From a virus, in IMG/VR virus record IMGVR_UViG_3300047319_000378, positions 1 through 23,698 of that record: DNA of 23,698 nt, one strand, 5' to 3'. The notes under the pieces are model-generated. The model saw only the letters and a program-made list of their open reading frames with translations. It made no database searches and was not told the DNA's origin. Positions 11,712-23,668 of this stretch are shown here, piece after piece (positions within the stretch are counted from its first letter, which is position 1; each line of letters opens with the position of its first letter). The position numbers and the translations under genes were made by a program.

Positions 11712-12305
11712 TTAGAGCGCCTCTTCGAAAGAGAGGCTGAAGACATGCAGACGGTTTTGATCGGGATCCTTCGCAGGGATCGACGTAAGCCGCAGAGTCA
11801 GCGCCGCGGCGGCGAACGTGACCACCGCGTTATCCGCCGGCGACGCGCGCAGAGCCGGCTTGAACTGCAGACCATTGACCTGGCCCGAGCCATTCGAAGT
11901 CGCGTCGGCCGTTAGGATCTTGTATTCGCTGCCGACCTGGAAATACTCGCCCGCCTTCGCGATGAGCGTCCCGTTCGGCAGGCCGTCGACGTTGAGCGTC
12001 GTGCCCGTCTGGCCCGCGCCGTTCACGAGGCACGTCGACTGCCCGCTCGTTACGCCGGGATTCATCGGATCGACGACCGTGAACGTCCCATAGATCCCGA
12101 CGGCCGCGAGGAAGGCCGTCATCGGCAGAGCTCTCAGCCAGTCGAGCGGCTCGGTCTCGAGTACGCCTTCCCAACGATCGGCCGTTCCGCCGGCGAGAGT
12201 GACGACCTGGCTTCTGCGTGTAAACAGGCTTTCGGTCCGCGCGACGTTCTCATTCAGCTGCAGCGAAAACCGCGTGACGCGAATTCCGGTCGGGAATGCC
12301 GACAT
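11712..12305 (-). CDS. Distal tail / minor tail protein
   Basis: The product has 197 residues. The order SLFTRRSQVVTLAGGTADRW, LPMTAFLAAVGIYGTFTVVD, CLVNGAGQTGTTLNVDGLPN and KAGEYFQVGSEYKILTADA is characteristic of a phage distal-tail protein family found just after the tape measure. It is inferred to form the ring that joins tail tube and tip. The N-terminal 120 residues and the C-terminal oligosaccharide-binding-like part are both present, so it seems complete. The gene starts 3 nt after the tape-measure stop. Confidence 0.72.
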   Translation of the reverse strand: MSAFPTGIRVTRFSLQLNENVARTESLFTRRSQVVTLAGGTADRWEGVLETEPLDWLRALPMTAFLAAVGIYGTFTVVDPMNPGVTSGQSTCLVNGAGQTGTTLNVDGLPNGTLIAKAGEYFQVGSEYKILTADATSNGSGQVNGLQFKPALRASPADNAVVTFAAAALTLRLTSIPAKDPDQNRLHVFSLSFEEAL

Positions 12306-12308
12306 GGT

Positions 12309-13493
12309 CTAGCGCTTCCCGCTCATGCGATTCGCGATCGCGCTATAGCTCTGAGTCGCCGCGATCCGCGCCGCCGTGCCGAGCGATTGATCCCACTGCG
12401 GCGGAAGCCCGGCGGCGACGTAGTTGTTGATCGTCATGCCGCCGCCGCGGACGGAATCCGTGACGAGCAGATTCCCCGCGCCAGCGAGCGAACCGCCGCC
12501 ACCCGCGCCGCCGCCAGTGAACAGGGATCCGAGGCCGCCCGCGCCGGTAAACCATCCTGCAATCGACTCGGCGAGCGGCTTGAAGACGGTGAGCTTCAGG
12601 ATGAGCTCGGCGAAGTCTTTCGCGAGACCTTTCACGGCCCCGCTCAGGTCTCCATCGAGGAGCGCTTGAATCCCGCGCGATTCGAACGACGCGGTGAACG
12701 TGTCGGCGAAGGCCTTCGCTTCCTTCTTCGCGGCCGCGAGTGCCGCGGCGAGCGCATCGGCCTCCGGAGTGAAGGCCGGCATCTGCCGGAGCTGCTCGCT
12801 CTTCGGGACCGTGATCTTCAGCGCGTTCTCGTCGAGGAGCTGCTCGTTACGATCCATTTCCGCGAAGCCGAGGTTTATATCGTCGAGCTTCTTGTTCAGC
12901 TCGTCGAGGCCCTTGAAGAGCGGCAGCTTCTCGACATCGAACGTCAGCGGCGCCGGCGCGTTCACCAAGGCGTCGCGCTTGGCGATCAGATCGTCGAGCT
13001 CCTTCTGCGCCTGCGCTCCCTTCGCGCCCTGCGTGAACGGATTCAACGGATTCGCGTTTGCATCCTTCGGCATCGAGTCGAGCGTTTTCTTCAGCGTGAG
13101 GATCTGCTCATTCAATGCTCGGATCTGCGAGTCCGCTCCGGTGTTCTCGCCGAGCCAGTCCTTCCAAAATTTCGCGGCCGTCTCGATCGATGGCGCGACC
13201 TTGGACAAGAGGTCGACGGAGAGATCGCCGAGCGAGTCGCCGAGGTCGTCGATCGCCTTCTTCGCGGTCACGATCGAGAACGCCGAGTCGGTGCCCATCT
13301 TCGCGGCGCGCTTCGCGACGGCGTCGAAGCCTTCGAGCAGCTTGTCGAAGCCGAACCCGCCGAGTACCGCCGTGCCGAGCCGGGTGATATCGCGGATCGG
13401 CCGCTCGAGCTCGTGCAGGTTGCGCGCGGCCGAGCGGATGGCGGCCGACGTCTCGTCGGTCGCGGTTATCCGGAATGAGGCGGTTGGATCCAT
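12309..13493 (-). CDS. Short tail tape measure protein
   Basis: The product has 394 residues and is predominantly helical. Early coiled-coil-like segments lead to an Ala/Lys-rich helix at about 255-285 (ALAAALAAAKKEAKAFADTF). A hydrophobic segment follows (GLAKDFAELILKLTVFKPLA), then a Gly-rich stretch (TGGGAGGGGSLAGAG) and a C-terminal tail. This order and its place right after the tail chaperone identify the tape measure, which sets tail length and is ejected with DNA. At about 0.15 nm per residue it predicts a tail of roughly 60 nm, short for a siphovirus. Its start lies inside the frameshifted chaperone extension, with AAGGA 9 nt upstream. Confidence 0.78.
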   Translation of the reverse strand: MDPTASFRITATDETSAAIRSAARNLHELERPIRDITRLGTAVLGGFGFDKLLEGFDAVAKRAAKMGTDSAFSIVTAKKAIDDLGDSLGDLSVDLLSKVAPSIETAAKFWKDWLGENTGADSQIRALNEQILTLKKTLDSMPKDANANPLNPFTQGAKGAQAQKELDDLIAKRDALVNAPAPLTFDVEKLPLFKGLDELNKKLDDINLGFAEMDRNEQLLDENALKITVPKSEQLRQMPAFTPEADALAAALAAAKKEAKAFADTFTASFESRGIQALLDGDLSGAVKGLAKDFAELILKLTVFKPLAESIAGWFTGAGGLGSLFTGGGAGGGGSLAGAGNLLVTDSVRGGGMTINNYVAAGLPPQWDQSLGTAARIAATQSYSAIANRMSGKR

Positions 13494-14037
13494 GCTGCGC
13501 GTTCCTTAGCGAGATAGGCGGCACACAGAGCGATCTCGGATTCGGTCCACTGCCAAACCTCGGCAGGCCGCACGCACCATCGCGCCGCGATCGCCAGGAC
13601 CGCGGCGAGGCCCGGATCCGTCGCTATTTTTTTTCGGCGGTCGCCAGAGTGACGCGGTTTTGGAAGAGCAGACTCGCGAGCTCGGCGATCGCCGCGGCCG
13701 GCGCTGTGAGCAGCGGAGCCGCGTGCGCGGGCCCGAACTTGAGCGATCCGTCGGCTTTGCGCGCACGCGCGATGACGATCTCGACGAGATCCTTCGCCGT
13801 CATGATGTCGCCCTTCTCGAGCTTGGACAGCACTTCATAGCGCTCGGCCGCCGTCATCGGATGGAAGTAATACACGCGGCCGAAGCCCTCGACGTCGGTC
13901 CACAAGAGTTCGCGCTGTTTCGCGAATCCTTGAAGGATCTCGTCCGCGGTGAGCTCCGGCAGCGCGCGACGCTCTGCGGCGATCTTCTCGGCGGCCGCGA
14001 GCTCGTCCTGAAATTTCGAGATTTGTGCGACGGTCAT
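13466..14037 (-). CDS. Tail assembly chaperone GT-like fusion made by -1 frameshift
   Basis: Reading the 0 frame from 14037 to the A8 tract (13634-13627), then slipping back one base, gives a fusion ending at TAA 13468-13466. The extension of about 54 residues (IATDPGLAAVLAIAARW, then PAEVWQWTESEIALCAAYLAK) is clearly protein-like. It has no start codon near its beginning. This matches the lambda G/GT design, in which a slippery site near the end of G adds a T domain needed to recruit the tail tube protein to the tape measure. The extension ends 28 nt inside the tape measure gene. Frameshift efficiency cannot be judged from sequence. Confidence 0.72.
13624..13635 (-). promoter_or_regulatory. 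Programmed -1 ribosomal frameshift site (A8 before stop)
   Basis: On the minus strand the sequence reads G-AAAAAAAA-TAG, with the 0-frame codons GAA AAA AAA TAG. A AAA AAA is a canonical -1 slippery heptamer, and here the stop codon occupies the next codon, which should promote pausing. Slipping opens a frame that continues to 13466. A small GC-rich stem just downstream (GGGCC/GGTCC around a 7-base loop) may stimulate it, but this stem is weak evidence. Confidence 0.72.
13624..14037 (-). CDS. Tail assembly chaperone G-like (0-frame product)
   Basis: The product has 137 residues. Helical segments (ISKFQDELAAAEKIAAERRA, LTADEILQGFAKQRELLW) precede VYYFHPMTAAERYEVLSKLE, an 'M-T-A-x-E' motif frequent in G-like tail chaperones. 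It ends E-K-K at an A8 run followed directly by TAG. G-like proteins coat the tape measure during tail assembly and are absent from the finished virion. The gene lies between tail tube and tape measure, overlapping the tube gene by 4 nt, exactly as expected. Its 3' end is the slippery site for the longer GT-like product. Confidence 0.8.
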   Translation of the reverse strand: MTVAQISKFQDELAAAEKIAAERRALPELTADEILQGFAKQRELLWTDVEGFGRVYYFHPMTAAERYEVLSKLEKGDIMTAKDLVEIVIARARKADGSLKFGPAHAAPLLTAPAAAIAELASLLFQNRVTLATAEKK

Positions 14038-14510
14038 GCGGCAGATACCTCGAGGACGGCGGTCGTGATCCAGAGAACGGCCTTCACGAGAATGACGCCG
14101 TCATTCGTGACGCTGTCGACGCGTAGGCTGCCGACTCGCGCGCGGAAGTAACGCTTCGTCGGGTTCGTCGAGATCTGGTCATTGAAGAGCACACGGAAAT
14201 TGAACTCGTCGAGCGCTTGGCTGACCGCCTGAAAGGCCGCCACCATCGCAGCCTGGCCGCCCTCGCCAGTCGTGTGCGCCCACACGATTTCCATGTCGCC
14301 AGCGTCCGCTGCGCCGCGCGCCTTGTTGACGCGGCCATCGGCGAGCGAGACGAACGTGACCTTATTCCGCTCGTCGCCGAACGCGCCGAGACTCTGCACG
14401 TTGCCGACGGGCGTGTATGTGTCGGTCTCGTAAGTCGCCTGATCGCCATTCGGGACAGCGAGCGTCGTGCCGATCGCGATCGAGGCGCCGGTGCCGGTTT
14501 TGATTGCCAT
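14034..14510 (-). CDS. Major tail tube protein
   Basis: The product has 158 residues. MAIKTGTGASIAIGTTLAVP and TYTPVGNVQSLGAFGDERNK, then VTFVSLADGRVNKARGAADA, follow the lambda gpV/TP901-like tail tube pattern: a beta-sandwich with a 'V-G-x-V' strand and a long loop that packs between subunits. It polymerises into hexameric rings forming the tail tube. It lies just before the frameshifted chaperone genes, the usual order. A strong AAGGAG lies upstream of the ATG and probably raises expression. Confidence 0.8.
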   Translation of the reverse strand: MAIKTGTGASIAIGTTLAVPNGDQATYETDTYTPVGNVQSLGAFGDERNKVTFVSLADGRVNKARGAADAGDMEIVWAHTTGEGGQAAMVAAFQAVSQALDEFNFRVLFNDQISTNPTKRYFRARVGSLRVDSVTNDGVILVKAVLWITTAVLEVSAA

Positions 14511-23033: not shown

Positions 23034-23668
23034 GCCGCGATGAGATCCGAGCCGTCTCTCGGACGCCGAATATTGTCAGCCGCCCAAAGCGGCCGCAGAT
23101 TCGCCAGAGCCCAACACGCCGAGATTTCTTCCGGAATGCTCGGATCGAAGTTGCACTTCGGCATGACGTGATCGATATGCCATTCGCCGCAGTTCGCCCA
23201 AGTCATGCCCGGCAAGAAGAGCCGCTCGAGGTGCTCGCGCAGATCTCGCCACGAGTAGTCGACAAAGCGCGGCCGCGATTGACGGTCGCCGCGCGCCCAC
23301 TTGGAGAACTGCCGCCGCATCAATTCGCGAAGCCTGAACTCGACGCTCGTCGCATAGCGCGCGCGATACCGCGCCCGATTCCGCGCATGGTTCCGGTGTG
23401 AACGTCGAACCCGAGCACGTCCCGCCGGCGTCTGGCGTCCCGCGCGATCGCGACAAATCTCTGAGCAGTACTTGCGTTTTCGCCCGCTCATGTCCTCTCG
23501 GCAGTGGGCGCATTGCTGAACGCGTTCGTCGACGGTGCTCTGCGCTCGAGCCCGGCTCCAACATAGGCGAGAGCACCATCGCGGAGCTGGACCGGCTCTG
23601 TTCATTTGCGGAAACTGAGCGCCGCAGTGCTCGCAGAGCCGCAGCCGCAGCGATTTTTTTTCTCTCAT
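23030..23668 (-). CDS. HNH endonuclease with N-terminal zinc-finger pairs
   Basis: The product has 212 residues. The HNH core is C-terminal: WHIDHVMPKCNFD (H164, D166, H167) and ANLRPLWAADN (N190, N199). The N-terminal half has two CxxC...CxxxC pairs, C12/C15/C32/C36 and C53/C56/C68/C72, likely two zinc ribbons. A very basic Arg-rich linker (about 82-105) joins the parts. HNH proteins beside terminase genes assist cos cleavage in several cos-type phages, and the gene is coupled by 4 nt to the small-subunit gene. The ATG at 23668 has AAAGG directly before it with no spacing, and the frame is open to the window edge, so the true start may be upstream. Confidence 0.85.
   Translation of the reverse strand: MREKKSLRLRLCEHCGAQFPQMNRAGPAPRWCSRLCWSRARAQSTVDERVQQCAHCREDMSGRKRKYCSEICRDRAGRQTPAGRARVRRSHRNHARNRARYRARYATSVEFRLRELMRRQFSKWARGDRQSRPRFVDYSWRDLREHLERLFLPGMTWANCGEWHIDHVMPKCNFDPSIPEEISACWALANLRPLWAADNIRRPRDGSDLIAA

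Follow-up and report, generated by a model that had tools for sequence, protein, structure and literature searches.

The 23,698-nt stretch of viral DNA analysed here, hereafter the window, is a 23.7-kb uncultured virus record (IMGVR_UViG_3300047319_000378) whose minus strand carries a tail assembly chaperone gene of the G/GT kind. Sequence comparison and a predicted fold make it highly probable that a minority of ribosomes slip by -1 on the heptamer A AAA AAA, just before a TAG stop codon, to yield the longer protein GT. The G/GT kind is already known (PMC5009743, PMC10885494), and is met here in a 'heptamer plus adjacent stop' form. The G gene (13624-14037, minus strand, 137 aa) ends in GCC GAA AAA AAA TAG. 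Its slippery heptamer (13627-13633), the last heptamer of G and in frame with it, lies within an A8 run (13627-13634, a T8 run on the plus strand), and is directly adjoined by the zero-frame TAG (13626-13624). Most ribosomes would terminate at this TAG to give G, while a minority would re-pair one base back on the heptamer to give GT, a protein of 190 aa in which a 53-residue T follows G. The T extension in the -1 frame (13466-13627, minus strand) begins from an ATA codon and reads IATDPGLAAVLAIAARWCVRPAEVWQWTESEIALCAAYLAKERAAWIQPPHSG, followed by a TAA stop that ends at 13466, 28 nt within the tape-measure ORF (start 13493). An earlier note, made from the sequence alone, had described an A8 slippery site at the end of G, which is confirmed at 13624-13634 on the minus strand, and a -1 extension of about 54 residues reaching 28 nt into the tape-measure gene, for which the overlap is exact and the length is corrected to 53.

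The gene order tube, G, GT, tape measure, likewise proposed from the sequence, is borne out by the neighbouring genes. Upstream lies the tail tube (major tail) protein gene (14034-14510, minus strand; phrog_158 major tail protein, E 2e-16), whose stop overlaps the G start as ATGA. Downstream are a 394-aa ORF in the tape-measure position (12309-13493, minus strand), which overlaps the T frame by 28 nt, and the distal tail protein gene (11712-12305, minus strand; phrog_1302, E 6e-28). Family searches with the 394-aa ORF gave no match of its own, and its assignment draws on its position between G/T and the distal tail protein and on its counterparts in Roseobacter phages, which are annotated as tape measure. 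The same order is found in three GenBank Roseobacter phages (L002-L004). The minus strand of the window also encodes a terminase (phrog_15), a portal, a capsid/protease and a J-like protein. On the plus strand, a serine recombinase (PF00239, 1920-3413) suggests a temperate phage. In genome-collection searches with alignment queries, one query gave no near relative and another gave two distant ones, and no close host genome was found.

Relatives were recovered with TerL and alignment queries; the window G used as a query found no match in phages (tblastn) or viral contigs, and the distal tail protein alone and J alone retrieved no relatives from viral contigs. Loci were gathered from relatives in the neighbourhood of their distal tail protein and terminase, together with GenBank Roseobacter phages, and profiles for G, T and GT were constructed from 24 clusters. 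For the window G, the match to phrog_344 'tail assembly chaperone' is weak (E 0.014) and that to the family G profile has an E of 9e-7; within the family, phrog_344 is matched by 33/42 G proteins and phrog_337 'tail protein' by 38/40 T extensions. A search of the PDB by sequence with the window G returned nothing useful. An AlphaFold2 model of G, computed from an alignment of the window and scanned contigs with GenBank phage rows excluded, has a mean pLDDT of 83.5, and its best PDB match is the HK97 tail assembly chaperone 2ob9 (Foldseek probability 1.00, E 0.009; VIA Z 7.5 over 102 residues), a likeness of predicted fold at a sequence identity of only 10%. The top viral structure matches of the model also include tail assembly chaperones. 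By sequence, predicted fold and place, the locus is thus identified as a G/GT tail assembly chaperone gene.

Coding in the -1 frame was assessed against L005, an independent metagenome contig whose TerL is 87% identical to that of the window, and which contains the identical sequence GAAAAAAAATAG, including A8 and TAG. G is 71% and the T extension 69% identical between the two, and the T stop is the same. Calculated over the 133 nt that run from the TAG up to the ATG of the tape-measure ORF, pN/pS is lowest in the -1 frame (0.40), compared with 0.87 for frame 0 and 5.0 for the +1 frame, which shows, for this pair of sequences, purifying selection confined to the -1 frame; the per-frame test rests on this single close relative. 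When the same substitutions were placed at random, the observed T-frame identity was matched in only 0.4% of cases (P 0.004) and identity in the other frames was not beyond chance, while a stop in the -1 frame would be created in 62% of cases. The earlier note had proposed aligning relatives to see whether the -1 frame is conserved while the +1 frame is not, which is the pattern found, and had held that stop codons in the -1 frame of relatives would speak against the extension; none was seen.

The family profiles lead to the same frame. Against the GT profile, G of the window scores 27.8 bits, G joined to its -1 extension 42.1 bits and G joined to the +1 frame 27.7 bits, and G followed by shuffled T sequences (n=20) reaches at most 29.8 bits; the -1 extension therefore contributes 14 bits, which neither the +1 frame nor the shuffles supply. 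Profile-profile alignment of T is gap-free over a core of 39 columns (E 1e-4). T of the window alone gave no Pfam, PHROG or NCBIfam match, and its resemblance to the family T is weak. These results bear on the idea that the -1 frame is noncoding and open merely by chance in GC-rich DNA. The +1 frame is likewise open, for 40 codons in both the window and L005, as chance openness would allow, but conservation beyond chance and profile homology are found in the -1 frame only, leaving this explanation barely credible. The -1 frame of the window is thus open, with conservation at the protein level and homology to T, and the assignment to a GT-type chaperone made in the earlier note is upheld by per-frame conservation, a profile match that runs through the slip point, the HK97-like fold and gene order.

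T might instead be a separate small protein, with ribosomes that have terminated G reinitiating at a GTG codon at 13573. This GTG, the single one in the -1 frame of the window, is shared with L005, and T-frame ATG codons past the slip point occur in three near relatives by distal tail protein (L006, L007 and L179). However, it is located inside the conserved T domain and lacks an obvious Shine-Dalgarno sequence, homology and conservation extend ahead of it, and ATG, GTG and TTG are all absent from the T frame ahead of the domain in 98/99 relatives. Reinitiation is consequently considered very unlikely. The earlier statement that the extension has no conventional start nearly holds across the family, the GTG at 13573 making it literally incorrect for the window. 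More improbable again is an error of sequencing or assembly, by which the true run would be A9 and G and T one continuous gene: homopolymers are error-prone and one further A would fuse the frames, but A8 followed by TAG also appears in the independent contig L005, and complete genomes of Roseobacter phage isolates show the equivalent interrupted layout.

The layout was followed through the wider tail-module family by a T-profile search of the collected loci, which gave 99 homologues; G is intact in 96 of them. Each of the 96 carries a slippery heptamer in frame, and in 92/96 the zero-frame stop is at distance 0 from it, the other four lying at 3, 6, 6 and 24 nt. When T sequences are clustered at 60% identity, distance 0 holds throughout in 14/17 clusters, and one cluster is mixed. 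In an earlier scan, 84 distance-0 loci almost always had the heptamer A AAA AAC and mostly the stop TAA, with few TGA or TAG. The TAG of the window, at distance 0, places it with this adjacent-stop G/GT family. For comparison, mean heptamer-to-stop distances obtained with PRFect are 36 nt in the Xu set and 26 nt in the SEA-PHAGES set (PMC10885494), so that an adjacent stop is unusual for tail chaperones at large, as the earlier note had supposed, but is the rule in this lineage. In 74/83 loci the zero frame meets another stop no more than 15 codons further on, and the adjacent stop is therefore not needed merely for ending G soon. In a codon-choice test based on the -1 amino acids and the codon use of each locus, an adjacent stop was expected in 9.3/24 clusters of a set pre-chosen for distance 0, which suggests, as an indication only, that the adjacent stop may be selected beyond the requirements of the T sequence. 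Because of that choice of set, the family frequency is taken from the 92/96 count.

Close described counterparts include the CRP-822-type roseophages (PMC12629253), which have homologous G and T in the same order, with the stop adjoining the heptamer as in the window; the sequence is A AAA AAC TAA in these phages, compared with A AAA AAA TAG in the window. The word 'frameshift' is absent from the text of the paper describing them (PMC12629253). In six Roseobacter phage isolates in GenBank the T frame is unannotated, and A AAA AAC TAA is followed by a 138-nt gap without a gene of its own (for instance 5522-5659 in L002, 4981-5118 in L003, 5142-5279 in L004, 4655-4792 in L172 and 4575-4712 in L173). 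In the window, the distance between the G stop and the tape-measure ATG is 130 nt; the earlier note had put at about 130 bp the stretch that standard gene calling would leave blank. Stops that immediately follow a -1 heptamer are also known from Rous sarcoma virus and barley yellow dwarf virus (PMC4373837); the stop position is alike, but these are eukaryotic RNA viruses and the genes are unrelated. For phage tail chaperones, no description of the adjacent stop as a conserved layout was found in the open-access papers searched.

Two further signals are frequent, though not universal, in the family. The Shine-Dalgarno-like sequence GAGGA begins 11 nt 5' of the heptamer in most members, and a strong stem begins about 4 nt 3' of it in many, being absent from part of the family, including isolates. 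The spacing of Shine-Dalgarno sequence to heptamer in dnaX and IS elements is 10-14 nt, and that of GAGGA in the family is shorter. The downstream stem has a mean z of -2.6, in a set that includes the window and L005, against -0.4 for control segments. In a gap-free alignment of 48 downstream segments, the stem pairs in 72.9% of cells compared with 28-41% when it is displaced by 1 to 3 columns, and covariation is seen as 37 double-sided changes compared with 13.5 in shuffles. The covarying stem pairs columns 5-17 with columns 37-49 of the downstream alignment, for example in L061, L128, L149 and L051. RNAalifold over all 48 segments gave no consensus. Neither the window nor L005 has a stem better than shuffles (z 0.31 and 0.52), and both lack GAGGA at -11, where the window has GCGACC.

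The run itself is rare in its surroundings: two A8/T8 runs are observed in the window compared with about 0.05 expected under a first-order Markov model. The second (23654-23661, minus strand) falls in the first codons of a leftward gene (23668-23030, beginning MREKKSL) at the contig end. Lysine codons in eleven window genes are AAG:AAA = 122:22, which makes AAA AAA itself unusual here. For the window and L005, the main rival to ribosomal slippage is transcriptional slippage on the A8 run, in which the polymerase adds one A or drops two and the resulting mixed mRNA gives GT by ordinary translation. A8 is within the length considered for bacterial polymerases (An, n>7; PMC3711429), and long A runs recur near this position in the tree neighbourhood of the window, since A8 or A9 runs also occupy the corresponding position in the four loci nearest by distal tail protein, L006 (8449-8978), L007 (1921-2480), L174 (2782-3300) and L179 (3025-3590), whose G belongs to a different family. 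These are loci of the GTA gp10 / TAC_6 type (PF11836, PF09550), in which the pair occupies the same position with an analogous small T partner: the G protein is PF11836 in three of the four, T is TAC_6-like, and some relatives have a T ATG of their own, such that frameshifting and a separate T start may coexist in L006, L007 and L179. G of the window gave no match to PF11836 and its T none to PF09550, while L006, L174 and L179 match. The wider family to which the window does belong mostly has A7 followed by C, and many members have the stem-loop and the Shine-Dalgarno-like element typical of ribosomal frameshifting, so that its usual mode looks ribosomal. Transcriptional slippage is accordingly judged unlikely, if appreciably less so than the other alternatives, and ribosomal slippage is favoured.

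Ribosomal slippage at the window site would in outline resemble that of phage lambda, with the order tube, G, T, tape measure, a -1 shift close to where G ends, and T in the -1 frame. Lambda slips at G GGA AAG and has its stop farther on, unlike the window, where A AAA AAA is followed by a stop at distance 0. In lambda, G coats the tape-measure protein, the T part recruits tube protein, and G is about 30 times as abundant as GT (PMC5009743). By analogy, G and T of the window would perform these same two tasks, for which reason the ratio of G to GT would matter for tail assembly, and G would probably be in large excess.

The position of the stop gives this ratio a possible further determinant. 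With the stop codon next to occupy the A site once the heptamer has been read, release is most likely in competition with slippage, and ribosomes that do not slip would be released by RF1, UAG being served by RF1 only. Earlier work in E. coli with the HIV heptamer, described in PMC4373837, found that an adjoining stop lowers frameshifting and that extra release factor abolishes it, a result interpreted as slippage that follows translocation, once the A site has received the next codon. This favours competition with release factor as a probable contributor to the control, and agrees with the suggestion in the earlier note that termination efficiency may contribute to it. Such competition, like the ribosomal nature of the slippage, its rate and the functions of G and T, is inferred. 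Weighed against the frameshift reading were the lowering of frameshifting by an adjoining stop in E. coli, the published statement that A_AAA_AAA is much less shift-prone than A_AAA_AAG in E. coli (PMC5009743), the lack of a stem or GAGGA in the window and L005, the weak T match of the window taken alone, and a per-frame test made on L005 only.

The T frame represents a missing tail gene that can be added to these phages, including the six GenBank isolates, whose annotation could be corrected. The combination of a heptamer, a stop and an open -1 frame ahead of the tape measure provides a sequence rule for finding T elsewhere. A broader proposal, which is tentative and at present more doubtful than not, is that a 'shifty stop' G/GT switch operates in a widespread tail-module lineage, composed of the heptamer, a stop as the following A-site codon and, in a large part of the lineage, an upstream Shine-Dalgarno-like element and a stem-loop; both the G:GT ratio and the tail assembly that depends on it would then track the release-factor activity of the host. 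The conserved stop at the heptamer connects the termination of translation with the building of phage tails in a way that can be tested.
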